Shown here: positions 8,985 to 21,424 of the stretch, one piece after another
Numbering within the stretch: the stretch's first letter is position 1
How the letters are laid out: each line of letters begins with the position of its first letter
Virus record (IMG/VR): IMGVR_UViG_3300017739_000143
Coordinates: 1 to 21,424 of that record
From: a virus
DNA length: 21,424 bases
Direction: 5' to 3' (one strand)
The notes under the pieces: generated by a model
Database searches by the model: none
The model's input: the letters and a program-made list of their open reading frames with translations, nothing else
Told to the model about the DNA's origin: nothing
Position numbers and translations under genes: made by a program

Positions 8985-8987
8985 CAA

Positions 8988-9173: not shown

Positions 9174-9205
9174 TTTTTCTCCTTATATATGTTATTGATT
9201 AATCT

Positions 9206-9233
9206 AGTATAGCAGTTAGAGTGCAATTTACAA
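9206..9233 (-). promoter_or_regulatory. Promoter of the leftward exonuclease cassette
   Basis: Minus strand TTGTAA (9233-9228), 16-bp spacer, TATACT (9211-9206). Confidence 0.6.
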
Positions 9234-9362
9234 TAGCAATTGTTAGACATTTAGAGGGCAAAATGTATGCAAAAATTATATACGATTTCTCTTGCATTTT
9301 TAGGCGATATGTGGTATGGGCGCCGCTGTATGGATATACAGTAGTTTATTTTTGAAATGGGG

Positions 9363-9411
9363 TTGACAAAACGCGTGCATACCCTTAAACTTACGTAGTA
9401 AGTTTAAGGGT
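9363..9411 (+). promoter_or_regulatory. Palindromic operator overlapping a promoter, copy 2
   Basis: Arms of 14 nt starting ACCCTTAAACTTAC (9381-9394) and ending at 9411 with a GTA loop, same sequence as the copy at 7052-7085. TTGACA (9363-9368), 17-bp spacer, TAAACT (9386-9391) repeats the same geometry. TTGACAA and TTGTCAA flank it as an outer inverted repeat. It faces the rightward genes from 9476. Confidence 0.65.
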
Positions 9412-9441
9412 TGGTTGTCAATAAATAAATGAAATTAATCC

Positions 9442-9469
9442 TTGCAATTTTAAATGAGAGGTATATAAT
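9442..9469 (+). promoter_or_regulatory. Promoter of the four-gene micro-operon
   Basis: TTGCAA (9442-9447), 16-bp spacer, TATAAT (9464-9469). The expected start falls on the ATG at 9476, so the first gene would be leaderless. Confidence 0.65.
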
Positions 9470-9475
9470 ATAATT

Positions 9476-9640
9476 ATGAACGAGAAAAAATTAACAAAAA
9501 AAGAATTATTAGAAGCAATCGAATCTTATGAGAGAATGATAAGAAACGAGAGCCTAATGAAAACATTCACGAAACATATGCGAGGTGCATTTGTGGTGAG
9601 GTTAGGCAGATTAAATGCCGAATTAAAAAGGAGAAAATAA
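9476..9640 (+). CDS. Small basic helical protein, 54 aa, probably leaderless
   Basis: The product MNEKKLTKKELLEAIESYER... is helical and ends in a basic segment (RLGRLNAELKRRK). There is no ribosome-binding site, but the -10 box ends 6 bases before the ATG, so the mRNA likely begins at the start codon. Stop and next start overlap (TAATG). Function unknown. Confidence 0.6.
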   Translation: MNEKKLTKKELLEAIESYERMIRNESLMKTFTKHMRGAFVVRLGRLNAELKRRK

Positions 9641-9777
9641 TGGCAACATTAACAATATCAAGCGACCATAATCCAGGGGTCGTAGTTCTGAAAGGGAAAA
9701 TGGCTTGGATTCAAAAAAGAGCATGGGCATATAGAAACAAGGGTTTCAATGTCTTAATAACATGGGAGCAAAAATAA
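9640..9777 (+). CDS. Hypothetical protein, 45 aa
   Basis: Coupled by TAATG at both ends, with AAGGAG upstream in the previous gene. The product (MATLTISSDHNPGVVVLKGK...) looks like a small beta/alpha protein with Trp and Arg near the end. Not recognised. Confidence 0.55.
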   Translation: MATLTISSDHNPGVVVLKGKMAWIQKRAWAYRNKGFNVLITWEQK

Positions 9778-9845
9778 TGGAAACCTTATTAATATTAACC
9801 CCTGCCATATTATTATTAATGGTTGCATTGTGGGTGTCATCATGA
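9777..9845 (+). CDS. Membrane peptide, 22 aa
   Basis: A 22-residue frame that is almost entirely one hydrophobic helix (METLLILTPAILLLMVALWV). It is linked by TAATG to the gene before and ATGA to the gene after, which is the main reason to accept it. Confidence 0.42.
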   Translation: METLLILTPAILLLMVALWVSS

Positions 9846-9997
9846 GAACGAAACAACAACAAAAAAATCATGAAGCATGGCTAAGACAAAAAGCAAAGAT
9901 AATTAAATATCTAAATGAGAATGAGATGATAGTATTCTTCTTGCTAGGTCTTTGCTTCTTAGTCATGGTAGGATTTCTAGCTGTTGCAGTTGCATAG
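9842..9997 (+). CDS. Single-pass membrane protein, 51 aa
   Basis: A polar N-terminal half (MRTKQQQKNHEAWLRQKAKI) is followed by one long TM helix (about residues 30-51). It ends the four-gene overlapping set. The layout (cytoplasmic helix then C-terminal TM) is seen in small phage membrane proteins; no family assigned. Confidence 0.55.
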   Translation: MRTKQQQKNHEAWLRQKAKIIKYLNENEMIVFFLLGLCFLVMVGFLAVAVA

Positions 9998-10138
9998 CTA
10001 GGTCATTAGAGAGGGGGGTTATGAGACTCCCTCTCCTCCTATAGCTCTAGCTCCCCCACACGTGTAACTTTTGAAAAATTTTCGAACTACAAAAAGACGC
10101 ACACTGTAGCATCGTGACGATGCATACGAAAATAATTC
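9998..10138. other. Intergenic stretch with hairpin and inverted repeat
   Basis: No gene. GAGAGGG (10009-10015) pairs with CCCTCTC (10029-10035) without a T run; GCATCG-TGA-CGATGC (10109-10123) is a perfect inverted repeat 16 bases before the next -35 box and could be an operator. Confidence 0.45.
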
Positions 10139-10167
10139 TTGACATCAGATATAAAATTTGATATAAT
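10139..10167 (+). promoter_or_regulatory. Sigma-70-type promoter of the rightward main block
   Basis: TTGACA (10139-10144), 17-bp spacer, TATAAT (10162-10167). The start is expected at 10174, the A of the ATG. Confidence 0.85.
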
Positions 10168-10173
10168 TCTCCT

Positions 10174-10848
10174 ATGAATGAAACTTTTAGAGAATGGGCA
10201 GACGTTAATCAACTTTTTGAGTTAAATTATCAGAAATGCTACAATTATCGAGACTTCGATGACTTTGAAAAGCAATGGAAAGATATTTTCACGAAGTTCG
10301 GCTTACACAAAGAATCTTTTAATAATAAAGTATTACTAGATATCGGATGTGGGTCAAGACCTGCACTTTCTTATTTTAGTTCAGACAATGAAAAACATTG
10401 TGTGGAGCCTCTACTAGATGACCTTATGAAAGTAGAGAAAAGCAAGTACAATGTATTTCCAGGAAAGACTCCGTGGCATAACAAAGAAAACCTACCTAAT
10501 ACAAAAATTAAGGATTGGTTTACGGAGGAAGACTACAAATTACATTCAGTCCCTTACGAGACTTTAGTACCAGAGTTAAGGGGCAAAGTAGATTTTTTAC
10601 TTTGTTGGAATGTATTAGACCATGGCTATGATTGGAGAACAGGATTGAGTAATATGCTACTCTATCTAAAGAAGGGAGGTTTACTACTATTAGGAACCGA
10701 CTTCGACGCTCACAAGTATCATCTAGGTATAGACAATCCAGATTACTTAAAAGAATTGATTAGCTACAATTTTGAAATAATAAGTCCAAAGGTAGAACAC
10801 TCTCAACGATGGGATAGGGACTATATGGTACTAGCACGTAAAATATGA
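10174..10848 (+). CDS. Class I SAM-dependent methyltransferase
   Basis: The 224-residue protein has motif I LLDIGCGSRPALSY (about residues 54-67) for SAM binding, an acidic post-I strand (KHCVEPLL), motif IV-like DFLLCWNVLDHGYDW (about 139-153) and a GGLLLLGTDF strand. The fold is clear, the target is not; the lack of a DPPY motif argues against DNA N-methylation. Similar genes are common in marine T4-like phages. It probably starts a leaderless transcript and overlaps the next gene by 4 bases. Confidence 0.78.
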   Translation: MNETFREWADVNQLFELNYQKCYNYRDFDDFEKQWKDIFTKFGLHKESFNNKVLLDIGCGSRPALSYFSSDNEKHCVEPLLDDLMKVEKSKYNVFPGKTPWHNKENLPNTKIKDWFTEEDYKLHSVPYETLVPELRGKVDFLLCWNVLDHGYDWRTGLSNMLLYLKKGGLLLLGTDFDAHKYHLGIDNPDYLKELISYNFEIISPKVEHSQRWDRDYMVLARKI

Positions 10849-11312
10849 GTAAACCAACAGATATCGCAGTAAAAATGAGTCCAGAAGGGTTAGAGATAGC
10901 CAACGCATACTTAGAACTTGGGTCTACACAAGCTGTATGCATACGCCTAAATATAGATGAAAATACCGTGCAAGATTATTTAGGTAAGCGAGAGATTAAA
11001 CAATATATCGACCAAGTGTACCTGGACACGGGCTACAGAAATAGATTTAAGATAGCCCATGCACTAGACGATATAATAGATAAGAAGTTAGACGAAGCAG
11101 AAGAATCTCAAATTTATACTAACAAAGACATAGCCGACCTGCTCTCAATGGCACATAAAATGAGAATGGACGAAATAAAAGCTATGGCAGACTTGGAGAA
11201 AGCAAAAGCCTCCAATATTAAAAACCAAACAAATGTACAAATTAATAGTGATTTACCTTTTGGACAAGGTAACTATGGGAAACTCATGGAAAAACTATTA
11301 AAGGAGGAATAA
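10845..11312 (+). CDS. HTH protein, candidate small terminase subunit
   Basis: The 155-residue protein has an N-terminal helix-turn-helix (about residues 15-50: IANAYLELGSTQAVCIRLNI...NTVQDYLGKREI) and a long helical middle (YLDTGYRNRFKIAHALDDII, then KDIADLLSMAHKMRMDEIK). This arrangement, and the TGYRNR...HKMRMDE pattern, resembles small terminase subunits of marine phages, which bind the packaging site and feed DNA to the large subunit. No large terminase gene is in view, so the call is tentative. Confidence 0.5.
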   Translation: MSKPTDIAVKMSPEGLEIANAYLELGSTQAVCIRLNIDENTVQDYLGKREIKQYIDQVYLDTGYRNRFKIAHALDDIIDKKLDEAEESQIYTNKDIADLLSMAHKMRMDEIKAMADLEKAKASNIKNQTNVQINSDLPFGQGNYGKLMEKLLKEE

Positions 11313-11503
11313 TGATACATTTAAGCAGTTACATGCAAGAAGACAAACGCGCAGAAGTTTTCAAAAAGGATGGCCACTATGGTGCAACCTTTTATGATAA
11401 TGATGAAAGAGTTGGAGAAGAACTCTACGTAGGACACAGTGAATCGTATGCAGAGAATGCAGCAGAAAACTATGTTCTAGGAATCAAACAAGTTGGCGTA
11501 TAG
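11312..11503 (+). CDS. Hypothetical protein, 63 aa
   Basis: AAGGAGGAA precedes the ATG. The product (MIHLSSYMQEDKRAEVFKKD...) has a short beta sheet pattern followed by a helix with SYAENAAENYVLGI, a closing I have seen in small phage proteins of unknown role. It overlaps the iscU start by 11 bases. Confidence 0.6.
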   Translation: MIHLSSYMQEDKRAEVFKKDGHYGATFYDNDERVGEELYVGHSESYAENAAENYVLGIKQVGV

Positions 11504-11927
11504 TAAAGAAGTAGTAGAAAGGTTCGAACAAGTCTTAGCAAGTCCTAAGCAGTTCAGTGTGGGTCGCTTTGACCCAAATGACCCCGATGTAGCTACTGGT
11601 ATGACAGGAGCACCTGCATGTGGTGATGTCATGAAATTACAACTTAAACTAGACAAAGATGAAACAATCATTGATGTTAAGTTTAAAACCTACGGATGTG
11701 GAAGTGCTATAGCTTCTTCTACTATGTTCGTAGAATTACTAAAAGGTAAAACAATTGAAGAAGCAAAAGAGATTAAGGACAAAGACATAGCAGAAGCGTT
11801 ACAGCTTCCGCCTATCAAGTTACACTGCTCCGTTCTAGCTGAGGATTCTATTAAACAAGCAATCCAAAACTGGAAGGAGAAAAATGAAAATAATATGGAA
11901 ACAGTTCCACAAGATGATGAAATCTAA
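11493..11927 (+). CDS. iscU: IscU-like Fe-S cluster scaffold
   Basis: The frame opens at TTG 11493 with AGGA about 10 bases upstream, overlapping the previous gene. All hallmark residues are present: C43 and D45 (GAPACGDVMKLQ), C69 (KTYGCGSAIASS), H111-C112 (LHCSVLAED), and the chaperone-binding LPPIK (105-109; LPPVK in E. coli). IscU assembles [2Fe-2S] clusters on these Cys and passes them on with HscA/HscB. The first 25 residues are slightly longer than in E. coli and there is a polar 17-residue tail. It is next to an IscA-like gene, so the pair may boost cluster supply during infection. Catalytic completeness suggests it works. Confidence 0.9.
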   Translation: MAYSKEVVERFEQVLASPKQFSVGRFDPNDPDVATGMTGAPACGDVMKLQLKLDKDETIIDVKFKTYGCGSAIASSTMFVELLKGKTIEEAKEIKDKDIAEALQLPPIKLHCSVLAEDSIKQAIQNWKEKNENNMETVPQDDEI

Positions 11928-11961
11928 CCGAATACAAAATATTTGGCGAGAGGTATTATAG
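11884..11961 (+). CDS. Possible 25-aa peptide between iscU and iscA
   Basis: A well placed AAGGAG precedes this ATG, better than the sites of the flanking genes. The peptide (MKIIWKQFHKMMKSNRIQNI...) is basic and amphipathic; it begins inside iscU out of frame and ends 3 bases before the iscA start, so it could act by translational coupling. Confidence 0.35.
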   Translation: MKIIWKQFHKMMKSNRIQNIWREVL

Positions 11962-11964
11962 GAA

Positions 11965-12282
11965 ATGATAGATGTCACTAATGAAGCTTATACTAGACTT
12001 ATACAGAAAGCCGCGCACCAAGAGAACTTTGTTTTTAGACTTGGTATTACTGGGGGCGGCTGCGGTGGTATGGAGTATAGTTTTAATTTTAATAGTGAAA
12101 CTTATTCAAGTGATTTGGTTCTGGATTGGGGGCGTATAGCATTTCGCATAGACCCCAATTCAGCACCCTATTTGGAAGGCATAACCCTGGACTGGCAGGT
12201 AGAAGGATTAAATGAAGGATTTAAAATTATCAACCCAAAAGAAAAATACAGATGTGGATGTGGAGAAAGCATCGGCTTCTAG
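11965..12282 (+). CDS. iscA: IscA/HesB-type A-type Fe-S carrier
   Basis: The 105-residue protein has the three conserved Cys of A-type carriers: C33 in GITGGGCGGMEYSF and C97-x-C99 in YRCGCGESIGF. Length and order match IscA/ErpA/SufA. These proteins bind iron or [2Fe-2S]/[4Fe-4S] clusters and deliver them to client enzymes. HesB-like genes are known from marine phages. Lying behind an intact IscU it forms a minimal scaffold-carrier pair. Its last 71 bases overlap the next gene out of frame. Confidence 0.88.
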   Translation: MIDVTNEAYTRLIQKAAHQENFVFRLGITGGGCGGMEYSFNFNSETYSSDLVLDWGRIAFRIDPNSAPYLEGITLDWQVEGLNEGFKIINPKEKYRCGCGESIGF

Positions 12283-12448
12283 GAAAGTACTACAAGTAGT
12301 TAACCTAAGCCCCAGCGAGTCAATAGTAGAAAAGTTGACGGAAATTCATCCAATGAAACAAATCTTTTGGGCGTCTATTATTCAAGTAAGCGTGTTCTTT
12401 GGAATGCTCGGAATGTTTCAGGTAAACTCATGGATATTTTCAGCTTAA
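12212..12448 (+). CDS. Single-pass membrane protein, 78 aa
   Basis: AGAAGGA sits before the ATG, which lies inside iscA. A polar N-terminus (MKDLKLSTQKKNTDVDVEKA) is followed by a C-terminal hydrophobic helix (about 51-76). It overlaps the next gene by 19 bases. Not recognised; probable inner-membrane anchor. Confidence 0.55.
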   Translation: MKDLKLSTQKKNTDVDVEKASASRKVLQVVNLSPSESIVEKLTEIHPMKQIFWASIIQVSVFFGMLGMFQVNSWIFSA

Positions 12449-12723
12449 TCACAGATGTCGGAGCACCCATTGCGGCTGCTATAGTCATGGGTGGTTTTAT
12501 ATTCGTAATCATGCGACAAATTTTTGAAGGTGTGGTAAACTCAATCAACACCCTGAAGATGTTTACGGAAAGTCTCATAACTCGTGTCAAGACTATAAAT
12601 AATGACATGATAAAGTTAGACACAAGTGTAAGCGCAGCTCTTGAACTTACACCTGATTTGGACAGAATTGCAAGAGCAGAAAATTTCGTAGAAGACGGAA
12701 GTATTGATGTAAGGAGAGACTAA
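12430..12723 (+). CDS. TM plus coiled-coil protein, 97 aa
   Basis: I prefer ATG 12430 because the product then begins with a membrane helix (MDIFSLITDVGAPIAAAIVM...), as in the related gene at 12827. After the TM comes a helix with LKMFTESLITRVKTINNDMI, then a short acidic tail. The NNDMIKLD segment matches LDNDMIRLQ in 12827-13081, so the two appear to be diverged paralogues. Topology recalls BhlA/XhlA-type holin-associated proteins. Confidence 0.62.
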   Translation: MDIFSLITDVGAPIAAAIVMGGFIFVIMRQIFEGVVNSINTLKMFTESLITRVKTINNDMIKLDTSVSAALELTPDLDRIARAENFVEDGSIDVRRD

Positions 12724-12836
12724 TGGATGTAGTATCAGCTTGGGACAGTTTATCATATTGGGACGGTATATTATTTACGTTCTGGATAGGTCTATTATAT
12801 ACTTATAAAGTATGGATAGATAATAGATGGAAATAG
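12723..12836 (+). CDS. Membrane peptide, 37 aa
   Basis: Starts at TAATG overlap with the previous stop and overlaps the next start. The sequence (MDVVSAWDSLSYWDGILFTF...) is rich in Trp and Tyr with one hydrophobic segment. GGAG precedes it. Unknown role. Confidence 0.5.
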   Translation: MDVVSAWDSLSYWDGILFTFWIGLLYTYKVWIDNRWK

Positions 12837-13081
12837 TTGACGCGATTCAAAAATTTGGTTTCCCCGTGGTGGCAATGGTCGGTCTGGGATATTTCGTATA
12901 CTTTGTATGGACAACGATAACACAAGTAATCAATCCAACAGTAAAGGAAATGCATATGACTCTCATAAAGCTGATAGACCAAATACGTATGCTCGATAAC
13001 GATATGATTCGTTTACAGCAAAAGGTAAACACTGTTTTACAAATGAAAGAAAATGAAAAACAAAAACGACATAACAGGTGA
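12827..13081 (+). CDS. TM plus coiled-coil protein, 84 aa (holin-associated type)
   Basis: An N-terminal TM helix (about residues 10-32) leads into a long amphipathic helix (LIKLIDQIRMLDNDMIRLQQ) and a Lys/Arg tail. It is a paralogue of the 12430 gene. Such TM-coil proteins can be holin-like or spanin-adjacent, but their place just before csgF also allows a role around the secretion module. Inferred from topology only. Confidence 0.62.
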   Translation: MEIVDAIQKFGFPVVAMVGLGYFVYFVWTTITQVINPTVKEMHMTLIKLIDQIRMLDNDMIRLQQKVNTVLQMKENEKQKRHNR

Positions 13082-13667
13082 TAAACTTATAACAAAGCCT
13101 TCTGCCGCATACGCAGAAAACTATGACGCAGTCTTTCGCAGAGGACAGATACATCAAGACCGTAACTTTGATACTGACGGCTATGAACAAAGGCAAAAAG
13201 ATGAGAAGATTACAAATGGTGTAATGTTGGCACTTCTGTGCTTGTGTACTGCTTCAATCGCTTTTGACATGCAAGCTGACGAAATCAAACACAAATTTAA
13301 AAGTCCTTCATTTAGTGGAGTTGGAACATCCTCTCACTACTTAACTATTGACTCACAAGAAATAACAAAGAAGGACGCTGTAAAAGCTGAGATAAAAGCT
13401 TTGGCAGACGCAGCAAAGCGGGAAGAAGAAAACACAACTCTCGCAAGATTTATAAAGAACTTTGAAAGTAGAATATATGCACAGTTATCTCGACAGCTAG
13501 TTGATAGTTTGTTTGGAGAGAACCCTGCAGAAGAAGGGTCATTTCAGTTATTCGATAACTTAATCACTTGGACGAGTGATGGCATTACAATAACAATGAC
13601 CATATTTAATGAGGCAACTGGTGAGACAACTACTATTACTATCCCTATTGGGGACTTTGGTTTCTAG
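13053..13667 (+). CDS. csgF: CsgF-like curli assembly factor with N-terminal extension
   Basis: Residues about 75-204 follow CsgF: HKFKSPSFSGVGTSSHYLTI at the mature N-terminus, where E. coli CsgF has its FxFRNPxFGG motif that inserts in CsgG, then a helical middle (FIKNFESRIYAQLSRQLVDS) and a beta end (ITITMTIFNEATGETTTITI). In bacteria CsgF is exported and caps the CsgG pore, coupling secretion to fibre nucleation. The signal-like segment MLALLCLCTASIAFDMQA is internal (58-75), preceded by 57 polar residues. Either the true start is ATG 13224 or the protein has a cytoplasmic extension. It precedes csgG, with 59 bases of overlap. Confidence 0.85.
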   Translation: MKNKNDITGDKLITKPSAAYAENYDAVFRRGQIHQDRNFDTDGYEQRQKDEKITNGVMLALLCLCTASIAFDMQADEIKHKFKSPSFSGVGTSSHYLTIDSQEITKKDAVKAEIKALADAAKREEENTTLARFIKNFESRIYAQLSRQLVDSLFGENPAEEGSFQLFDNLITWTSDGITITMTIFNEATGETTTITIPIGDFGF

Positions 13668-14457
13668 TTGTGCAACGCACAGTGGTTATATATCACCGTG
13701 CATGACTAACCCCGATGGGGACTACAAAGACTTAACTACAATCATACGAAAGGCAGAGTGCTTCTCAGGTGCTGCTGTACTTGAAAAACCTGTCACAAAA
13801 GAAATACAATCCCTACCCTTACCCGCAAGAACGCCCGTTGTTGCTATCTATAAATTCGAAGACTTAACAGGACAAAGAAAATCAAGAGATGGAATCGCAG
13901 ATTTCTCAAGCGCTATGACACAAGCTCCAGAGGCTTATTTGATTCGTGCGTTGAAATCTAGTGGATTCTTTAAAGTAGTAGAAAGAAAAGGACTAGACCA
14001 TTTAACAAAAGAGCGTCAGTTGATTCGTTCTACTCGTGAGAGATTTGATGAGAAAGATAAACAGTTACCACTGCTGTATGCTGGTATCATCATTGAAGGG
14101 GGTATTGTAGATTACAATACTAATGTATTAACCGGGGGAGCTGGAGCCCGCTATTTAGGTATAGGAACTTCCAAGCAATATCGTGAGGATACAGTGGTGG
14201 TATCAATGAGGTTAGTTTCTGTGAGTACAGGAGAAATCTTATTGGACATCCTTACTTCAAAAGCAATCCTCTCCGTGGGAGTTAGTAATGATTATTTTAG
14301 ATTTACTACTGAGAATGACTTAGTGGAAGTTGAGAGTGGAAACTCTATGAACGAACCTAAGTTCATTGCTTTACAAGCGGCTATTGAAACTTCAGTAGTA
14401 GAGCTTGTACAAAAAGGACAGGAAAAAGGGTACTGGAAGTACTATTTGGGAGACTAA
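13609..14457 (+). CDS. csgG: CsgG-like outer-membrane curli secretion lipoprotein
   Basis: The 282-residue protein has a lipoprotein signal with lipobox LVSSC (Cys21) and matches CsgG throughout: VVAIYKFEDLTGQ, ADFSSAMTQAPEAYLIRALK, FFKVVERKGLDHLTKERQ, IIEGGIVDYNTNVLTGGAGA, RYLGIGTSKQY, VSVSTGEILLDILTSKAILS, NEPKFIALQAAIETSV. CsgG forms a nonameric outer-membrane channel for unfolded curlins. Length is close to the 277 of E. coli. In the constriction loop the Phe is kept (ADFSS), but the region of E. coli Tyr51 and Asn55 reads RDGIAD. The signal-peptide codons lie out of frame inside the end of csgF. Confidence 0.92.
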   Translation: MRQLVRQLLLLSLLGTLVSSCATHSGYISPCMTNPDGDYKDLTTIIRKAECFSGAAVLEKPVTKEIQSLPLPARTPVVAIYKFEDLTGQRKSRDGIADFSSAMTQAPEAYLIRALKSSGFFKVVERKGLDHLTKERQLIRSTRERFDEKDKQLPLLYAGIIIEGGIVDYNTNVLTGGAGARYLGIGTSKQYREDTVVVSMRLVSVSTGEILLDILTSKAILSVGVSNDYFRFTTENDLVEVESGNSMNEPKFIALQAAIETSVVELVQKGQEKGYWKYYLGD

Positions 14458-14458
14458 A

Positions 14459-15175
14459 ATGAGGATATTAATAGCCTTGTTTTTATCAGTTGGTCTGTTC
14501 GCAGACAATGAAATCTATATTGACCAAACAGGAAATAATGCTAGTATTGACTTGGAACAACTCGGCTCTAACAATATAATTGGTGGTGACGATGCAACTG
14601 CAGGTTCAATGACAAAAGCAATCTTGAATGGAACAACAATGGTCTTAGACATCAATCAAATAGGAAGCTCCAATAAATTTCTTACCGATGGAATACTTGG
14701 TGATAATTTTACTGGCTTCTTTGAATTTGATGGAGATTCAAACGTGTGGGACTTTAGCATGGACACAACCGGGCTAAACACAGCTGACGGCAATAATATT
14801 AACATTGACGTTACTGGTTCACTCAACATTGCAGATATAGATATCGGTGAAGATGATGCCGCAAACTATCTAGACATTGATTGGATTATCGATGGAGATA
14901 GTAATGAAGCAGAAGTAGATATAGATGTAGATTATGCAACTATATTCTGGGACGTTCTTGGCGACAGCAACGATATAACTTTTATCCAATCTGGATATGG
15001 AGCTAGTTCAAGCGATGCTAAATACTTCTACCTCGACTTAGAGGGAAGTAATAATACTGCGGTTATCAAACAGCAGTCAACATTAGCAGCCGACTGGTTG
15101 AAAATTGAAAGTAATGCGTCTAATAGCAATATTTGTGTTATTCAGAATGATGGTGGGACTTCCGCTTCATGCTGA
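14459..15175 (+). CDS. Curlin-repeat protein, likely secreted subunit
   Basis: Start at ATG 14459, with GGAG before it, gives a signal peptide MRILIALFLSVGLFA and a 238-residue protein. Repeats of about 20-30 residues carry the curlin pattern of Ile/Gln and Gly-Asn turns: IDQTGNNASIDLEQLGSNN, INQIGSSNK, FDGDSNVWDF, IDGDSNEAEV, VLGDSNDITFIQSG, LEGSNNTAVIKQQ. Many positions are Asp where curlins have Asn or Gln, making it very acidic. Two Cys close the chain. Curlins are passed through CsgG and polymerise into cross-beta fibres, so this is the probable cargo. Whether it forms amyloid is untested. Confidence 0.8.
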   Translation: MRILIALFLSVGLFADNEIYIDQTGNNASIDLEQLGSNNIIGGDDATAGSMTKAILNGTTMVLDINQIGSSNKFLTDGILGDNFTGFFEFDGDSNVWDFSMDTTGLNTADGNNINIDVTGSLNIADIDIGEDDAANYLDIDWIIDGDSNEAEVDIDVDYATIFWDVLGDSNDITFIQSGYGASSSDAKYFYLDLEGSNNTAVIKQQSTLAADWLKIESNASNSNICVIQNDGGTSASC

Positions 15176-16214
15176 TATAGGAAGCATTACAGAACTACGT
15201 GGAGTAGGGCAAGTACTTAGAGACAAGCCCTACAACACGGACTTAGGATTTGACATTGAGCAAATGGATGATGTGCGTACAGCTAATGGGCGATTAGGTA
15301 TCACATTCATAGACGATAGTAAAGTCCGACTTACAGAGCATAGTAAACTTATAATAGACAAAGTAATCTTTGACCCCGACCCTAGCAAGTCGCAGATGTC
15401 AATGAAGTTTGCAAGTGGAACAGCTCGTTTTATTACTGGTGGTATTGGCAAGATTAATAAACAAAATATTAAGATTGAAACACCGACTTCTCAGATTGCT
15501 ATTCGAGGCACGGACTTTACTGTGACAGTGGATGAGTTAGGAAGAAGTTTAGTAATATTACTACCAGACGATATGGGACTTCCAAGTGGCGAGATTGTAG
15601 TAGCAACAGCCATGGGAGAAGTCATACTCAATAAACCTTATGAATCAACAGTAACTAGTATGTGGGAAAGTACACCTACTGCACCGATGATACTAGACTT
15701 GACACTGGACATCATAGACAACATGCTCATAGTGAGCCCACCTAAAAATGAAGAAGAAGAAACTGCAGGAGAAGTTGGAAGTGATGAGTCTGATGACAAT
15801 ATTCTTGATGTTGACCTTCTCGCTTACGACGGTTTAGATATAGATTATTTAGAAGAAGACTTATCTTTTAATGAACTTGACATAGACTATTTAGATGTAA
15901 ACTTTCTCGAAGACTTGTTGGAAGTTATCGAGGAACTAGATGCACTTGCAGTAAAAGAATCAAGAGGTACACAAGCTTTTTCAGAATTTGATGTACAAGG
16001 TACATTATTCGGGCAAGACCCAACAACACAGATTTTAACATTTGGTGACGCAGAAAAGATTACAATAATTCGTAGCGTTACTCAATCCGTACAACTAGAA
16101 CTCAATGGTGAGACAAGCTATAATATAATAATTGAACAAGATGGTAAAAGCTATAACATTATTCTTAACTCTGGTGACAACTCCAGTATTCGCATCCGTC
16201 AATCTTCAGGTTGA
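15114..16214 (+). CDS. FecR-domain secreted protein with curlin-like C-terminus
   Basis: ATG 15114 is preferred over TTG 15105; it gives the signal peptide MRLIAIFVLFRMMVGLPLHA, encoded inside the end of the curlin gene. Residues about 22-170 form a FecR domain (ITELRGVGQVLRDKPYN..., TSQIAIRGTDFTVTVDELGR). An acidic linker with EEEE and GSDESDD (about 210-225) and DIDY repeats (250-285) follow. The last 40 residues (YNIIIEQDGKSYNIILNSGD, SIRIRQSSG) look like curlin strands. Stand-alone FecR proteins of this type occur beside adenylate/guanylate cyclases and curli genes in bacteria. A cell-surface or cargo role is inferred. Confidence 0.8.
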   Translation: MRLIAIFVLFRMMVGLPLHADIGSITELRGVGQVLRDKPYNTDLGFDIEQMDDVRTANGRLGITFIDDSKVRLTEHSKLIIDKVIFDPDPSKSQMSMKFASGTARFITGGIGKINKQNIKIETPTSQIAIRGTDFTVTVDELGRSLVILLPDDMGLPSGEIVVATAMGEVILNKPYESTVTSMWESTPTAPMILDLTLDIIDNMLIVSPPKNEEEETAGEVGSDESDDNILDVDLLAYDGLDIDYLEEDLSFNELDIDYLDVNFLEDLLEVIEELDALAVKESRGTQAFSEFDVQGTLFGQDPTTQILTFGDAEKITIIRSVTQSVQLELNGETSYNIIIEQDGKSYNIILNSGDNSSIRIRQSSG

Positions 16215-16578
16215 TATACCTTGGGACTTCGAGCAGATGCAACAAGACGCATCTAAAATAGAAGCTTCTGAAGTAACGTATCACTTTGACTTTGAGAATG
16301 AAAAACACAAAACCTTTTTAATACTAAACATACTAGACGTTGCTTCTACTATATATGCTATGGAAAATAGAGATACTTTATATGAAACAAATTTTCTACT
16401 TCCAAGGAAACCAAGTCCTGAAGAGCTAATTATACAGAAGGCTGTAGTAATATCTACAATGAGCTACTTGGGTTTGTTTAGTACTCACCCAGACGACCAA
16501 TGGTACATTAATGGACTAAATGCAACATTAGGCATAGTAATAGTAAGTAATTTATATAGTATAAACAAATATGAATAA
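16141..16578 (+). CDS. Exported or membrane protein with DUF5658-like core
   Basis: The ATG at 16141 gives MVKAITLFLTLVTTPVFA, a clean signal peptide; a TTG 9 bases upstream would add three residues. The mature part has a polar segment, then NILDVASTIYAMENRDTLYE (around 65-85) and two weak membrane helices (about 103-118 and 128-142). The LDxxST-xxA...ET-N-LL-PS pattern resembles DUF5658-type small membrane proteins. It sits between the FecR and cyclase genes and overlaps both. Function unknown. Confidence 0.62.
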   Translation: MVKAITLFLTLVTTPVFASVNLQVDIPWDFEQMQQDASKIEASEVTYHFDFENEKHKTFLILNILDVASTIYAMENRDTLYETNFLLPRKPSPEELIIQKAVVISTMSYLGLFSTHPDDQWYINGLNATLGIVIVSNLYSINKYE

Positions 16579-18352
16579 ACTAATCACAATTGTACTAGCA
16601 ATGGGACTTCTTATATGGAATCCCTATCCTTTCCAAATTTTAGAACTTAAAACATTTGACTACTTAATTATGAATACAGAAGTAGTTCAAAATGAGAACA
16701 TTCTCATAGTTGACATTGACGAAGAAACAGTCAAGACTTATGAAGGATGGCCATTACCGAGAAGTGTCTATGGAGATGCTATAATGCAGACCGAGGCAAT
16801 TCCAGGCATTACAGTATTAATGCCAAACAAAGACTTACGAGGGCCAATGCAAGATGATTACTTTATACGCAGGCTAGAAGTAAGACCTACTGTCCTTGCT
16901 AGTGCAGCATCGACACAAGTAACTGGAACTAATCCTCATGTAGGAACTGCCCAGTTAGGAGAGGACCCAACACCATGGCTATATCAGTATCCAGGAATTT
17001 TACCTACCGAATCTACTCTGGAGTCAAAAACAAAGGGGCTCGGACTAGTAACCGCTACGCCGGAAATAGACGGGGTTACTCGTCGTATTCCCCTAGTCGT
17101 AAACGTAGAGTCAAAACTTTACCCAAGCTTCGCACTCGAACTCTTAAGAGTCGCAGTAGGAGACCCTTCGTACCAGCTAAAAACAACAGAAGAAGGCGTT
17201 ACTTGGGTTAGAATACCAAACTACCCACTTATGAATACAGATGCGAATGGTCGTATCTTTTTAAATTGGAACACGAACTTTTATAGACAAAGCTTACTAG
17301 AATATTTACAACAGCCGATTGATGCACCTTTTGTAATTATCGGCACGACTGCAGAGGGCATAACAAACCCTGTGCCGACCCCTGCGGGGGCTAAATACCC
17401 ACATGAAATTCAAGCAAATATATTACACAATCTTATCAACGGCACTGCACCTTCTGCACCGACCTGGACTCTTTCTGCTCAGCTTGCCTACAGTTTACTT
17501 GGCCTCACCTTATTGGCTCTTACGGTCTCTCGAGTCTATCTTTCTGTACTAGCTTTAGCACTAGTTGTAGCAGGAGCGTTCTATGGAATGGGGTATGCCT
17601 ATAAATCTTCCTACTTACTTAACCTTAATGGTGTCGTAGTTATCTCGATTTTGTACTGGGGGTATCATACATTCCTGAGTTTCCTTTCCGAGTATCGTCA
17701 GAAACTTCGAATCAAACAACAATTCGGCACGTACGTAAGTCCCGACCTTGTCAAAAAATTACAGGAAGACCCATCATTACTGAGATTGGGTGGGTTCACG
17801 GAACAACTAACTTTTCTTTTTTCTGACATCAGAGGATTTACACCGATTTCAGAAAAATATCAAAAAAATCCACAAGGACTTACGAGCCTCATTAATCGTT
17901 TCCTTGACAACCAGACTGAGATAATTCTCAAGCATGGAGGTACAATCGATAAGTATATGGGAGATTGCATCATGGCTTTCTGGGGAGCTCCGCTTCCTGA
18001 CGAGAATCATATAGAGAATGCAACAAAAGCGGCTATTGAAATGAGAATAGCTTTGGAGAAATTAAATGAAACACTTAAAGATGAAGGCCTTGACCAAATT
18101 AATACAGGTGCTGGCATCAATTCAGGTCCTTGCGTGGTTGGCAACTTTGGCTCTACTACTCGTTTCGATTACAGCGTCCTTGGCGATGCGGTTAATCTGG
18201 CTGCAAGGTTAGAGTCAAGTTGCAAAGATTATGATGCAGATTTAATAATATCTGAACACAGTTTAGTAGATGGTTATGAGTACGAGTTTCTTGACGAGGT
18301 AACTGTAAAAGGCAAGTCGGAGCCAGTAAAAATCTATACCATACGAAAATAA
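16571..18352 (+). CDS. CHASE2-domain class III adenylate cyclase
   Basis: The 593-residue protein has an N-terminal TM, an extracytoplasmic CHASE2 sensor (about 25-295: LIVDIDEETVKTYEGWPLPR, IGTTAEGITNPVPTPAGAKY), three TM helices (about 299-372) and a class III cyclase domain (about 405-593). The catalytic set is complete: metal Asp419 (FSDIRGFT) and Asp465 (YMGDCIMAFWG), Lys461 (TIDKYMGD) and an Asp in FDYSVLGDAVN, which favour ATP over GTP, and the NLAARLES Asn/Arg. It would make cAMP in response to a periplasmic signal. FecR-CHASE2 cyclase pairs are known in bacteria; a phage copy is unusual. No terminator follows; a new promoter starts at 18356. Confidence 0.92.
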   Translation: MNKLITIVLAMGLLIWNPYPFQILELKTFDYLIMNTEVVQNENILIVDIDEETVKTYEGWPLPRSVYGDAIMQTEAIPGITVLMPNKDLRGPMQDDYFIRRLEVRPTVLASAASTQVTGTNPHVGTAQLGEDPTPWLYQYPGILPTESTLESKTKGLGLVTATPEIDGVTRRIPLVVNVESKLYPSFALELLRVAVGDPSYQLKTTEEGVTWVRIPNYPLMNTDANGRIFLNWNTNFYRQSLLEYLQQPIDAPFVIIGTTAEGITNPVPTPAGAKYPHEIQANILHNLINGTAPSAPTWTLSAQLAYSLLGLTLLALTVSRVYLSVLALALVVAGAFYGMGYAYKSSYLLNLNGVVVISILYWGYHTFLSFLSEYRQKLRIKQQFGTYVSPDLVKKLQEDPSLLRLGGFTEQLTFLFSDIRGFTPISEKYQKNPQGLTSLINRFLDNQTEIILKHGGTIDKYMGDCIMAFWGAPLPDENHIENATKAAIEMRIALEKLNETLKDEGLDQINTGAGINSGPCVVGNFGSTTRFDYSVLGDAVNLAARLESSCKDYDADLIISEHSLVDGYEYEFLDEVTVKGKSEPVKIYTIRK

Positions 18353-18355
18353 TAC

Positions 18356-18384
18356 TTGACATCTTGTTGATATTTTGATATAAT
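18356..18384 (+). promoter_or_regulatory. Sigma-70-type promoter after the cyclase
   Basis: TTGACA (18356-18361), 17-bp spacer, TATAAT (18379-18384). The 5' UTR holds a TGTGGA-AATA-TCCACA hairpin (18394-18409) before AAAGGGG and ATG 18429. Confidence 0.85.
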
Positions 18385-18428
18385 TTTCATAAGTGTGGAA
18401 ATATCCACAAGATGTAAAGGGGACTAAC

Positions 18429-18656
18429 ATGGAAATCGAGCAGGTAGCTGCAAATCTTGAAAAGCATGAAGCTATCTGTGCTGAAAGATGGAAGACAATA
18501 TTTAACAAAATAGAGTCTATGGAAAAAGGAGCTTCGGACAGATTCAATGGAATCGAAGGACAAGTTTCTAGAATAGAATCTATACTATTAGGATGTGCAG
18601 GTTTTTTACTTGTATCCTTAATCGGCATTGTAACAACCATGATAACAATGCACTAG
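18429..18656 (+). CDS. XhlA-like holin-associated protein
   Basis: Start at ATG 18429, after AAAGGGGA, gives 75 residues: an amphipathic N-terminal coiled coil (LEKHEAICAERWKTIFNKIE, then RFNGIEGQVSRIESIL) and a C-terminal TM helix (about 53-73). The C-AERW pattern and topology match XhlA/BhlA-type proteins found in phage lysis cassettes. No endolysin is adjacent, so the lysis role is inferred from family only. Confidence 0.7.
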   Translation: MEIEQVAANLEKHEAICAERWKTIFNKIESMEKGASDRFNGIEGQVSRIESILLGCAGFLLVSLIGIVTTMITMH

Positions 18657-18665
18657 GAGAAAACA

Positions 18666-18845
18666 ATGGAAATGGAATATAGCAAAAAAGATATATCTAA
18701 GTCACCAAAGGCTAAAGCAGAAAAGGCTTTACCAGAGGGATGGCAGTTATATCTCAAAAGAGGTGTATGGTGTGTAAGAGACGACCAACACGTCTTATCA
18801 CAACATAAATCAGAACAAGAAGCATGGAAGTTTATTAATGGCTAA
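18666..18845 (+). CDS. Hypothetical protein, 59 aa
   Basis: AGGAG lies before the ATG. After a Lys-rich start (MEMEYSKKDISKSPKAKAEK) the protein has LPEGWQLYLKRGVWCVRDDQ and a final helix SEQEAWKFING, a small beta-beta-beta-alpha pattern. Not recognised. Its stop overlaps the next gene by 8 bases. Confidence 0.6.
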   Translation: MEMEYSKKDISKSPKAKAEKALPEGWQLYLKRGVWCVRDDQHVLSQHKSEQEAWKFING

Positions 18846-18990
18846 TCAGATAGAAGAAAAATTAAAAGAAGCAGTAGAAAAATCAGAAGAAGAACATGGA
18901 GAAACTCCACAATCTGCTAGACTCAAAAAGCTAATTGCTAGAAAAAAGAATCTACAACGTAGAAAACACAACACAAACAGACGCAGATAA
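18838..18990 (+). CDS. Small helical basic protein, 50 aa
   Basis: An acidic N-terminal helix (MANQIEEKLKEAVEKSEEEH) is followed by a strongly basic half ending in HNTNRRR. It overlaps the previous gene and is followed at once by the zinc-ribbon gene. Charge polarity suggests nucleic-acid or virion binding; no family. Confidence 0.55.
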   Translation: MANQIEEKLKEAVEKSEEEHGETPQSARLKKLIARKKNLQRRKHNTNRRR

Positions 18991-18992
18991 AC

Positions 18993-19154
18993 ATGAAGCG
19001 AAAAAAGTCGCCTGAAGAACGACTAGAGATTTGTAAGAAGTGTCCAAAATACAGTAAGTTTTGGAAAACTTGTACAATATGTAAATGTTTTATGCCCCTC
19101 AAAACTAAATTAAGATGGGCTGAGTGTCCAGACGAGCCACCTCGTTGGACTTAG
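18993..19154 (+). CDS. Small zinc-ribbon protein, 53 aa
   Basis: Cys at 14, 17, 27, 30, 32 and 44 (LEICKKCPKYSKFWKTCTIC and KCFMPLKTKL) form a zinc-binding knuckle pair; the CFMPLKTKLRWAECP ending is one I know from small proteins of T4-like marine phages. Zinc binding is a firm inference; the role is unknown. Confidence 0.7.
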   Translation: MKRKKSPEERLEICKKCPKYSKFWKTCTICKCFMPLKTKLRWAECPDEPPRWT

Positions 19155-19163
19155 GAGAAAGCA

Positions 19164-19247
19164 ATGCCATATGGAAAAGGAACTTATGGTTCCAGGGTCG
19201 GACGGCCCAAAAAGAAAAAGAAAAGAGGCAAGAAGAAGAAAAAGTAA
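19164..19247 (+). CDS. Lys-rich mini-protein, 27 aa (PYGKGTYG type)
   Basis: AGGAG precedes this ATG. The peptide MPYGKGTYGSRVGRPKKKKK... matches a short protein type with MPYG.GTYG..VGRP-K runs that is widespread in cyanophages and algal viruses. With its poly-Lys tail it may bind nucleic acid or pack in the capsid; that is inference. Confidence 0.6.
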   Translation: MPYGKGTYGSRVGRPKKKKKRGKKKKK

Positions 19248-19378
19248 CCAAAGTTTAACCTGAGGAGGTGATTAATTTTTAGGAGCGGGTGACCTTATAC
19301 TAAGCAAACTTGCATGATATTATATCATGACACGGAAAAATATCGAGGGGTCCCAGCTCCGCCCTAATAGGAAACATT
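19248..19378 (+). promoter_or_regulatory. Intergenic region with extended Shine-Dalgarno and palindrome
   Basis: GAGGAGGTGAT (19262-19272) matches the 16S rRNA anti-SD almost throughout, yet no start codon follows at useful spacing (the next frames close at once). CATGATAT-T-ATATCATG (19313-19329) is a perfect 8-1-8 inverted repeat. Confidence 0.4.
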
Positions 19379-19386
19379 ATGTTTAA
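19327..19386 (+). CDS. Possible 19-aa peptide
   Basis: ATG 19327 opens a frame MTRKNIEGSQLRPNRKHYV ending at 19386, overlapping the next gene start. It reads like real protein, but there is no ribosome-binding site except the hairpin arm around it. Confidence 0.22.
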   Translation: MTRKNIEGSQLRPNRKHYV

Positions 19387-19570
19387 AAGAATTTGGAATA
19401 TATTAAAGGGGGTAAACCCCAATGACTTAAATGGAGACGGTAAAGTCGACATTAAAGATAAGATGATTGAAGCAGAAAGAAAAACTGCAAAAGAAATCAC
19501 ACAATTTAAGCCGAGTAGTAACCACAACGGCGATGGAGTTGACCTTAGCGAAGGCTCCTATAAAAACTAG
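19379..19570 (+). CDS. EF-hand/dockerin-like calcium-binding small protein, 63 aa
   Basis: The start MFKRIWNILKGVNPND is followed by D-L-N-G-D-G-K-V-D-I-K-D (residues 16-27), a classic DxNxDGxxD calcium loop, and a looser second site NHNGDGVDLSEG near 49-60. TAGGA precedes the ATG. Single EF-hand mini-proteins occur in phages; calcium binding is likely, role unknown. Confidence 0.62.
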   Translation: MFKRIWNILKGVNPNDLNGDGKVDIKDKMIEAERKTAKEITQFKPSSNHNGDGVDLSEGSYKN

Positions 19571-19578
19571 TGGTTAAG

Positions 19579-19608
19579 CAGTCTAGCTCGTAAGAGCGGA
19601 AAGGACTG
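19579..19608 (+). other. GNRA hairpin in the 5' UTR of the next gene
   Basis: CAGTC (19579-19583) pairs with GACTG (19604-19608), enclosing GCTC-GTAA-GAGC, a GNRA tetraloop, just before the ribosome-binding site GAGGAGAG. It could regulate translation of the gene at 19620. Confidence 0.4.
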
Positions 19609-19619
19609 AGGAGAGAAGT

Positions 19620-19796
19620 ATGATAGATTTTTTCTTATTAATAGGAAAATTAATATCAGTTGTCCCCGTAATTGTAACAATCTGCTCTTTTGTAGCAGCG
19701 ATTACTCCAACACCAATTGATGATGGATTAATGAAAAAGGTTTACATGATTATGGACTGGTGCGCATTAAACGTGTGGAAAGCCAAGGACAAGTAG
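19620..19796 (+). CDS. Membrane protein, 58 aa
   Basis: GAGGAG lies before the ATG. The N-terminal 28 residues (MIDFFLLIGKLISVVPVIVT...) form one membrane helix, followed by PTPIDDGLMKKVYMIMDWCA and a polar end. Not recognised; topology is like small phage membrane proteins. Confidence 0.58.
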   Translation: MIDFFLLIGKLISVVPVIVTICSFVAAITPTPIDDGLMKKVYMIMDWCALNVWKAKDK

Positions 19797-19857
19797 GTTA
19801 ATACCCAGTTAGAGTTCTCTTCTTCAGTCAATGAGTGGGGGACTCTACACTTTAATT

Positions 19858-20049
19858 ATGGCAGCACGTAGAAAAAAATCAAGAAGGAAGGTAGCAAGAA
19901 AATCACGTAACGTACCTACTAATAAAAAACTCTATGCAAGAGTAAAAGCAGCAACAAAAAGAAAGTTCGCAGTATATCCTAGCGCATATGCAAATGCATG
20001 GTTAGTTAGAGAATACAAGAAAAGAGGCGGGAGGTACAGACGTGGCTAG
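19858..20049 (+). CDS. DUF5872-like basic protein, 63 aa
   Basis: ATG 19858 gives MAARRKKSRRKVARKSRNVP, a Lys/Arg block, then the conserved VYPSAYANAWLVREYKKRGG motif typical of a protein group shared by cyanophages, pelagiphages and algal viruses. The ATG lacks a strong ribosome-binding site; a start 9 codons upstream is also weak. Probably DNA-binding or virion-packaged, inferred from charge. Confidence 0.7.
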   Translation: MAARRKKSRRKVARKSRNVPTNKKLYARVKAATKRKFAVYPSAYANAWLVREYKKRGGRYRRG

Positions 20050-20335
20050 TACCGGACTTAAAAAATGGTTTAAAGAAAAATGGGTAGATATTGGAAGACC
20101 AAAAAAGAAAGGCAGATATCAACCTTGTGGAAGAGGGAAAGCTAAGACAGGAAGAAAAGGCTATCCTAAATGTGTTCCTTTAGCTCGTGCTAGAACTATG
20201 AGTAAAGCTCAAAAACGTTCAGCAGTAAGGAGAAAAAGAAAAGTAGCACAGGGCGTTGGAGGAAAACCTACTAACGTTCGTACTTATGCAAAGAGAGGCA
20301 AAAAACGAAAAACTACACGAAGAAAAAGAAGATAA
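20042..20335 (+). CDS. DUF5872-like basic protein, 97 aa, GTG start
   Basis: Starts at GTG 20042 inside the previous gene, with GGGAGG at the right distance. The N-terminus GLKKWFKEKWVDIGRPKKKG, then the YQPCGRGKAKTGRKGYPKCV Cys pair, are the hallmarks of DUF5872; the last 45 residues are almost all Lys, Arg, Gly and Ala. Possible condensing or DNA-binding protein. Confidence 0.75.
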   Translation: MASTGLKKWFKEKWVDIGRPKKKGRYQPCGRGKAKTGRKGYPKCVPLARARTMSKAQKRSAVRRKRKVAQGVGGKPTNVRTYAKRGKKRKTTRRKRR

Positions 20336-20382
20336 TCTCCATTAAGCAGCTAGACCACAAACTAGAGCTAGCTTATACACTT

Positions 20383-20523
20383 ATGGGGGTAGAGAAAGCA
20401 GTAGCATCGTTAATAATAGACTCAAGACAGAAGTTAACAAATTTAAAGAAACTGAAAGATTATGCATCAATGAACAAATGCGTCTTTCGAGACGAGCAAT
20501 TAAAAAAGCTTGTAGGAGAATAA
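20383..20523 (+). CDS. Small helical protein, 46 aa or longer
   Basis: The frame to 20523 reads MGVEKAVASLIIDSRQKLTN... from ATG 20383. The protein-like, heptad-bearing frame continues upstream (QLDHKLELAYTL) without an ATG, GTG or TTG until an ATT at 20341, so the ATG call may be too short. The next gene starts 2 bases after the stop. Confidence 0.5.
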   Translation: MGVEKAVASLIIDSRQKLTNLKKLKDYASMNKCVFRDEQLKKLVGE

Positions 20524-20524
20524 A

Positions 20525-20788
20525 ATGGCTAGAGGCGGTTTTTTAAGCGGACCTACTGGTGTTCACAGCACACAGAAAATCCGTAAACACAAACTCAAAA
20601 GAGGAGTTACTAGAGACATGAATGCAGCAGCAGGAGCTACTGTAAATAGCAGAAAAGCAGGAAGTATGGAAGCAATGAGATACGCATCTGCACCAAAAGC
20701 TATCGGTCCTAGATTCGGTAAAACAAAGAATCCTAAAAAAGCTAGATTCAGCAAAAAAGGACATAGCAGAATATTACGTAGGAGGTAG
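20525..20788 (+). CDS. Small basic protein, 87 aa
   Basis: GGAG precedes this ATG. The product (MARGGFLSGPTGVHSTQKIR...) is rich in Lys, Arg, Gly and Ala with MNAAAGATVNSRKAGSMEAM in the middle and ends KKGHSRILRRR. It belongs to the same run of basic late-type proteins; family not named. Confidence 0.65.
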   Translation: MARGGFLSGPTGVHSTQKIRKHKLKRGVTRDMNAAAGATVNSRKAGSMEAMRYASAPKAIGPRFGKTKNPKKARFSKKGHSRILRRR

Positions 20789-20790
20789 AA

Positions 20791-21096
20791 ATGCCTACAC
20801 GTAAGAAAGGACGTAAAAGAGACCCTAGATTAAAAAGAGCAGGAGTCTCAGGTTTCAACAAACCAAAAAGAACACCAGGTCACAGAACTAAATCACATAT
20901 AGTTGTGGCAAAGGTGGGCGGTAAAATCAAAACAATAAGATTTGGACAGAAAGGAGCTAAGACTGCGGGCAAACCTAAAGCAGGAGAGTCACGTAGAATG
21001 AAGATGAAGCGTAAAAGTTTCAAAGCTAGACATAGAAGAAACATTGCTAAAGGCAAAATGTCAGCTGCTTACTGGGCAAATAAGGTAAAATGGTAA
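20791..21096 (+). CDS. DUF6321-like basic protein, 101 aa
   Basis: AGGAGG precedes the ATG. The C-terminal half has TPGHRTKSHIVVAKVGGKIK, TIRFGQKGAKTAGKPKAGES and SFKARHRRNIAKGKMSAAYW, the core of DUF6321 proteins seen in phages and algal viruses. The N-terminus is a Lys/Arg block. The role is unknown; the conserved core suggests a specific fold rather than just charge. Confidence 0.78.
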   Translation: MPTRKKGRKRDPRLKRAGVSGFNKPKRTPGHRTKSHIVVAKVGGKIKTIRFGQKGAKTAGKPKAGESRRMKMKRKSFKARHRRNIAKGKMSAAYWANKVKW

Positions 21097-21099
21097 AAA

Positions 21100-21424
21100 G
21101 TGAACTATGACATTAGTCAATTCCGTAAAAAAGGTTATTTAATTGTAAAAAACTTTCTAAGTAAAGAGGAACATGAAGAGCTCAACCTCACATGTAACAC
21201 TTTGACTAGATATGCAAAGACTATTTCGGCGCATACACAAGAAAATTGGCTAATGAACACTCCGTATAACCCTATGATGTTACAAGGAGCGATGAAATAT
21301 AATGAAACTTTTAAAAAATTAGGTAGAAATCCTAAATTATTAAAGGTAGCAAGAACATTACTACGAACAAATCACTTAAGTACTTATATATCTAAGTTTT
21401 TTCCAATGATTCCACGAGAAGGAA
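21100..21424 (+). CDS. PhyH-like Fe(II)/2-oxoglutarate dioxygenase, N-terminal part
   Basis: Opens at GTG 21100, 3 bases past the previous stop, and is open at the right edge (108 codons seen). FRKKGYLIVKNFLSKEEHEE is the typical start of phytanoyl-CoA dioxygenase-family proteins. The catalytic His-x-Asp and distal His lie beyond the window, so activity cannot be judged. Such genes are common in marine T4-like phages. Confidence 0.65.
   Translation, partial: MNYDISQFRKKGYLIVKNFLSKEEHEELNLTCNTLTRYAKTISAHTQENWLMNTPYNPMMLQGAMKYNETFKKLGRNPKLLKVARTLLRTNHLSTYISKFFPMIPREG

Follow-up and report, generated by a model that had tools for sequence, protein, structure and literature searches.

Curli-type secretion genes are already on record in pelagic phages. 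Wittmers et al. 2022 (PMC9599517) reported the series CsgF-CsgG-curlin-FecR-cyclase in pelagic podophages and myophages, with FecR called an iron-dependent regulator, and the description given there of the podophage modules reports one or two histidine kinases before csgF. The roles proposed in print are sibling capture, superinfection exclusion and import (PMC7029224, PMC9599517) and, for the module of methylophage Melnitz, lysis timing (PMC9004378). Melnitz was described as lacking curlin genes, and no clumping was seen in Melnitz-infected cultures (PMC9004378). However, curlin genes are annotated in the deposited records of both pelagimyophage HTVC008M and Melnitz, the latter with two curlin-repeat proteins (locus L003, 9752-12546). 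A first-pass annotation of the DNA analysed here had taken phages with CsgG and CsgF to be usually discussed without curlin; that view must be amended, since curlin, FecR and cyclase had been reported in pelagic podophages and myophages (PMC9599517). Our search of open-licence papers found no description of a T5-like lineage with the module.

The window, by which we mean the whole of a 21,424-base virus record, holds such a module at 12430-18352. Based on the listing of open reading frames and on Pfam, the module lies entirely on the plus strand, its neighbouring genes mostly overlap, and it encodes two small membrane proteins, CsgF, CsgG, a curlin-repeat protein, a FecR-domain protein, a further small protein and a CHASE2-adenylate cyclase. 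The CsgF, CsgG, Curlin_rpt, FecR, CHASE2 and Guanylate_cyc matches all exceed the curated Pfam cut-offs. The overlaps amount to 59 bases between the CsgF and CsgG genes, 62 bases between the curlin and FecR genes (with the FecR start at 15114), ~74-83 bases between the FecR and small-protein genes, depending on the start of the latter, and 8 bases between the small-protein and cyclase genes. Signal sequences were read off the translations. The six genes reported by the first-pass annotation were all recovered on the plus strand where it had placed them; it had drawn the module as 13053-18352, of which the right end holds, whereas the module begins earlier than drawn, with two conserved genes for small membrane proteins (12430-13081). 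Searches for tRNAs and Rfam families gave no match in the window.

A T5-type terminase small subunit (TerS) is encoded ahead of the module (10845-11312, plus strand; phrog_3802, 1.1e-39) and matches 903 phage records, of which those listed are large T5-like genomes. One relative, L004, is 99.85% identical to window positions 8506-21424 and runs on into a terminase large subunit (TerL) that shares 47% identity with its counterpart in Vibrio phage D254, a T5-like phage; TerL stands beside the module in most T5-like loci. In this context the module is flanked by terS and terL, in a lineage of T5-like siphophages. A 105,272-base relative (G001) encodes T5-like TerL, portal, protease, major capsid protein and tape measure as well as DNA polymerase, primase, helicases, a ligase pair and SbcCD, and a direct repeat, at least 43 bases long by our count, is present at both of its ends; the lineage thus has the T5-type terminase, head and replication genes of a T5-like siphophage. 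We considered two other identities. A bacterial chromosome fragment, which the first-pass annotation had named as a way in which it could be wrong, is ruled out by the TerS/TerL context, with T5-type terminase subunits flanking the module. A marine myophage, the kind of phage that it had in mind, is ruled out by the T5-like genes of the 105-kb relative; what stands of its reading is a phage with a curli-type secretion module, cargo, FecR and a CHASE2 cyclase.

Between terS and the module, at 11496-12282, are NifU-N-like and IscA/A-type Fe-S assembly genes, which are found in most T5-like loci and are missing from podophage loci. A small coiled-coil-like protein with a C-terminal transmembrane helix (18429-18656) adjoins the module in 23 loci and resembles lysis-accessory proteins in shape only, and a run of very basic, Lys/Arg-rich small ORFs, mostly of unknown PHROG families, occupies 19831-21096 just ahead of terL. 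On the minus strand, a polynucleotide-kinase-like phosphatase and a protein of phrog_20187, a phage family of unknown function (7170-7691 and 8091-8987), are part of a leftward gene block. Two relatives are in metagenome-assembled genomes (MAGs) labelled Pelagibacter, but the MAGs that contain other relatives bear unrelated labels. Low-GC, phage-type csgF-csgG modules occur on GTDB MAG contigs under the labels Pelagibacter, Flavobacteriaceae, Pirellulales and Rhodobacteraceae (L092, L094-L099), which are probably phage contigs binned into MAGs.

The exporter consists of CsgF and CsgG. CsgF, the pore-associated extracellular chaperone or anchor, is encoded at 13053-13667 on the plus strand (PF10614, 2.6e-18, residues 60-198). 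We read its signal as ..MQA|DEIK, with a mature part that starts DEIKHKFKSPSFSG; directly after this presumed cleavage site is an F.F..P.F.G motif, kept in 71 of the 80 CsgF ORFs, which we take to be the segment that binds inside the CsgG pore, and the protein thus has the pore-binding type of N-terminal segment found in type VIII secretion. Ahead of the hydrophobic signal CsgF carries an N-terminal extension of ~57 residues, with an internal ATG at 13224. The extension (13053-13223) is cytoplasmic-looking, KNDITGDKL..AYAENYDAVF, and in-frame in L005, L011 and L067, while the CsgF proteins of other relatives have short, different N-termini in its place; it has the appearance of a fusion, in which a small phage protein was joined to the signal sequence of CsgF. 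No solved structure for CsgF was found by sequence. CsgG (13609-14457, plus strand; PF03783, 2.2e-48) aligns over residues 64-277 with Escherichia coli CsgG (4uv2/4uv3, E 5.5e-45) and has the lipobox LVSSC, and is accordingly an outer-membrane lipoprotein secretion pore of the CsgG family, as in type VIII secretion. The E. coli constriction loop TGQFKPYP-ASNF corresponds to TGQRKSRDGIADF in the phage protein, in which the Phe is kept and the Tyr is not. We found no match to the CsgE gate of type VIII systems among the scanned window proteins, and no CsgC or CsgD alongside CsgF and CsgG in the module. Published phage modules likewise lack CsgE, which has been reported as non-essential for the curli phenotype (PMC7029224). 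The CsgG encoded by a 1.5-kb record that bears the name ‘Salmonella phage S.Kent 1-2-1’ (OR851715.1) is 38.5% identical to that of the window.

The curlin-repeat protein (14459-15175, plus strand) matches PF07012 in two stretches (6.9e-5) with a marginal score of 23.1 bits against the Curlin_rpt cut-off of 20.7, and qualifies on this basis as a type VIII curlin subunit; Pfam thus bore out both the curlin and the FecR assignments of the first-pass annotation. A signal peptide (..GLFA|DNEI) precedes a mature part that contains no Arg or His; the protein is very acidic, with a net charge of -35. Perfect repeats are few, and the Q.G..N columns are invariant over 36 homologues. A 39-sequence alignment places a Cys pair at the C-terminus, which the myophage proteins lack. 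Because the final 62 bases of the gene double as coding sequence for the FecR signal peptide, the curlin C-terminus is under two constraints. The AlphaFold2 model is a beta-solenoid (mean pLDDT 79), nearer in structure comparison to generic beta-helices than to the CsgA fibril (Z 11.0 but 9.1 A rmsd), and Foldseek gave no significant match to the model. From its sequence features this protein is likely secreted cargo, and we infer a location at the cell surface after secretion.

The next gene encodes an exported FecR-domain protein (15114-16214, plus strand; PF04773, 2.4e-11) with the signal peptide ..LPLHA|D, an acidic LD.D.L linker and a beta-rich tail; its predicted structure is of low confidence (mean pLDDT 34). 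The first-pass annotation had seen a curlin-like C-terminus here. That idea fared poorly: all 28 homologues tested match PF04773, as their FecR domain only, none of the 28 has a Pfam curlin match, and profile comparison of the tail with the phage curlin yielded no more than a weak match (probability 8%, P 0.004). The protein departs from a FecI/FecR/FecA regulator, in that a signal peptide replaces the cytoplasmic anti-sigma N-terminus and the scanned window proteins include no FecI sigma factor and no FecA/TonB receptor; weak NCBIfam matches are instead to the surface FecR-domain proteins Lsa33 and LipL45. In bacteria, FecR-domain genes are ~6 kb or nearer for 10 of 20 alphaproteobacterial CHASE2 cyclases (four at <150 bases), while none was found in 10 bacterial csgFG windows, and clusters of CHASE2 cyclase and FecR have been described in Campylobacterota (PMC9239204). 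We infer a FecR-CHASE2 pairing: because FecR is near bacterial CHASE2 cyclases and absent from bacterial csgFG loci, the simplest reading is that the phage module combines a curli exporter with a FecR/CHASE2-cAMP signalling pair. The small protein that follows (16132-16578, plus strand, with a start at TTG 16132 or ATG 16141) had been called exported; the gene is present and its product is exported or membrane-bound, and it matches no Pfam or PHROG family and no NCBIfam model over cut-off. It is found in 23 loci including the window, all in the T5-like group, it occupies the slot of the myophages' second curlin gene, and its dN/dS is 0.34-1.06 between the window and relatives.

The two genes ahead of csgF encode TM1 (12430-12723, plus strand; phrog_18771, 1.9e-25) and its paralogue TM2 (12827-13081, plus strand; phrog_18771, 3.3e-29; FGFPVVAMVGLGYFVYF..LDNDMIRLQ), small proteins of 84-97 residues with one N-terminal transmembrane helix. 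In TM1 this helix covers residues 3-21 and is followed by a probable coiled-coil tail, and no Pfam family scored over cut-off. TM1-related ORFs stand before csgF in the viral loci compared, and the dN/dS of TM2 is 0.02-0.11 where measurable. Judging by position and number, these are probably the genes labelled histidine kinases in the podophage module descriptions of PMC9599517. Profile searches of 17 members of the family gave no match to HisKA or HATPase_c, and the family alignment contains no invariant His. Thus the ‘histidine kinases’ of those descriptions appear to be short membrane-anchored proteins without kinase domains.

The last gene encodes a CHASE2-adenylate cyclase (16571-18352, plus strand; PF05226, 7.3e-32, and PF00211, 3.3e-20), with a periplasmic CHASE2 sensor, transmembrane helices and a cytoplasmic class III cyclase. 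The catalytic motifs FSDIRGF, DKYMGD and DYSVLGDAVNLAAR align with CyaB (3r5g) and are kept across phages; the metal, base-binding and transition-state motifs of class III enzymes are retained, and with its intact catalytic residues the protein belongs to the CHASE2 class III adenylate cyclases. Among 62 phage cyclases, HTVC008M misses the first-metal-motif pattern, Melnitz misses the Lys-motif pattern, and Melnitz and two others yielded no third motif. We identified no cAMP receptor in the window.

We compared the module with the best 80 of 273 relatives from a CsgG scan of IMG/VR, to which HTVC008M and Melnitz were added. The common order is TM(1-2)-CsgF-CsgG-curlin-FecR-[small protein, second curlin or nothing]-cyclase, identical in viral loci of two unrelated groups and in HTVC008M and Melnitz. 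Whether curlin, FecR and cyclase travel with CsgG had been raised in the first-pass annotation, and they do so in the viral loci compared; locus coordinates show FecR or cyclase missing only at contig ends. Two main groups appear. The T5-like one comprises 26 loci, each recognised by T5-like markers or by the small protein. The second group is of podophage type: DNA-level searches with the podophage flanks gave no matches, and the portal protein places the group with Pelagibacter phage HTVC023P, the portal of a 52-kb representative being ~52% identical to that of HTVC023P. Between the window and its relatives, dN/dS is 0.05-0.19 for CsgF, CsgG, curlin, FecR and cyclase, and the module is under strong purifying selection. 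In a tree of CsgG alone, the podophage group is nested inside the T5-like group, which suggested a T5-like origin of the podophage module; this was not upheld by a concatenated tree of CsgG, FecR and cyclase, in which the T5-like and podophage groups are sister clades, apart from HTVC008M and Melnitz. The trees support a spread between the T5-like and podophage lineages, in either direction. A Pelagibacter-MAG locus (L102) changes position from one tree to the other, a hint of recombination inside the module.

We propose, with a probability of roughly 55%, that the phage carries a type VIII (curli-type) secretion module and, coupled to it, an envelope sensor that produces cAMP. In an infected cell, CsgG would build a lipoprotein pore in the outer membrane of the host, with CsgF at the pore exit; the acidic curlin-repeat protein would be exported by Sec, pass out through CsgG, and then either cover the infected cell or assemble into fibres. 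Together, the exported FecR-domain protein and the cyclase with its CHASE2 sensor might form a periplasm-to-cytoplasm relay that reports the envelope or export state via cAMP, and the small TM proteins might be inner-membrane accessories. This proposal draws on the profile match of each part, the CsgG alignment, the kept CsgF motif, the invariant curlin columns, the conserved cyclase residues, the co-conserved order, the low dN/dS and the proximity of FecR to bacterial CHASE2 cyclases. Counting against it are the lack of CsgE, CsgC and CsgD, a curlin match barely over cut-off, the scarcity of perfect repeats, a solenoid nearer to generic beta-helices, the lack of clumping with Melnitz and the lack of a cAMP receptor in the window.

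The same genes can be read in other ways. If the FecR protein and curlin were both cargo, they could form a two-component surface fibre, in which FecR would serve as adhesin or nucleator, leaving the CHASE2 cyclase as sole sensor; export of the FecR protein, its gene directly after that for curlin, and a beta-rich tail with weak C-terminal resemblance to curlin fit this arrangement, but the tail match has a probability of 8%, the Pfam curlin count is 0 of 28 homologues and FecR-domain genes accompany CHASE2 cyclases in bacterial windows without csgG, and we consider it unlikely. A decidedly doubtful proposal is that CsgG and CsgF are a repurposed gated pore that times lysis or opens the outer membrane late, regulated or plugged by curlin, FecR and cyclase. 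It has been put forward for Melnitz (PMC9004378), and would suit two small single-TM proteins of holin-like size ahead of the module and a position between the TerS and TerL genes, a region likely to be late-expressed. However, it leaves unexplained why an exported curlin-repeat protein and the binding motif of CsgF should be so strongly conserved, profile searches match the TM proteins to no holin family, and the pore is much too narrow to let virions out (PMC7029224). The first-pass annotation had suggested that the module may provide a fibre or coat, a gate for release or exclusion, or a means of sensing the periplasm; among these, gene anatomy favours a secreted surface protein and a periplasm sensor over a release gate.

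We regard as very improbable that the pore imports nutrients or cofactors under an iron-responsive FecR, the role that PMC9599517 suggests for FecR. The FecR domain itself, a pore that might stay open with no CsgE gate (PMC9599517) and the NifU- and IscA-like Fe-S genes adjoining the module in the T5-like lineage point that way; yet FecR has a signal peptide and weak matches to the surface proteins Lsa33 and LipL45, FecI and FecA are lacking among the scanned window proteins, podophage loci have no Fe-S genes, and import needs neither curlin nor CsgF. Under the secretion-and-sensing reading, the candidate benefits to the phage are a block to superinfection, host aggregation and altered host physiology, the most likely being a changed surface that excludes rivals or clusters cells. 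A module of roughly 6 kb kept under strong selection in three unrelated ocean phage lineages must pay its way. A broader and tentative idea, to which we give somewhat less than even odds, is that of a mobile ‘export plus sense’ cassette (curli exporter and FecR/CHASE2-cAMP envelope sensor) that was assembled in phages and spread over three unrelated tailed-phage lineages (T4-like, HTVC023P-like and T5-like), remodelling the infected cell surface and raising host cAMP. The module offers a testable case of a phage dressing, or signalling through, the outer membrane of the infected cell, and correcting ‘histidine kinase’ and ‘iron regulator’ shifts the focus to cAMP and a surface protein, not iron response or phosphorylation.

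Set against known systems, the module shares CsgF, CsgG and curlin-repeat cargo with bacterial csg operons, but is without CsgE, CsgC and CsgD, and neither FecR nor a CHASE2 cyclase was found in the 10 sampled bacterial csgFG windows. With bacterial FecR/CHASE2-cyclase clusters (PMC9239204, and the windows compared here) it shares a CHASE2 cyclase with a FecR-domain gene nearby; in those windows no CsgG was detected and the FecR-domain ORFs are larger. HTVC008M and Melnitz (PMC7029224, PMC9004378) have the same TM-TM-CsgF-CsgG-curlin-FecR-...-AC order (AC, adenylate cyclase), but their proteins are ~30-46% identical to those of the window, a second curlin gene occupies the small-protein slot and their curlin lacks the C-terminal Cys pair. 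Podophages of the HTVC023P type (PMC9599517) have one or two small upstream genes, CsgF, CsgG, curlin, FecR and adenylate cyclase, and such loci form the sister clade in the concatenated CsgG-FecR-AC tree; they differ in a podophage rather than T5-like genome, whereas in the window a further small protein is encoded between FecR and cyclase, NifU/IscA-like genes lie upstream, and the upstream genes of the module are not kinases. T5-like siphophages such as Vibrio phage D254 share TerS, TerL, portal, head protease, major capsid protein, tape measure, DNA polymerase, helicases and SbcCD with the 105-kb relative; in D254, an endonuclease gene is the only one annotated between terS and the terL end of the record, whereas the T5-like loci here have the module and the Fe-S genes between TerS and TerL. 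The module itself was thus already known; this analysis adds a third, T5-like lineage that carries it, and gives new assignments to FecR and to the genes ahead of csgF.
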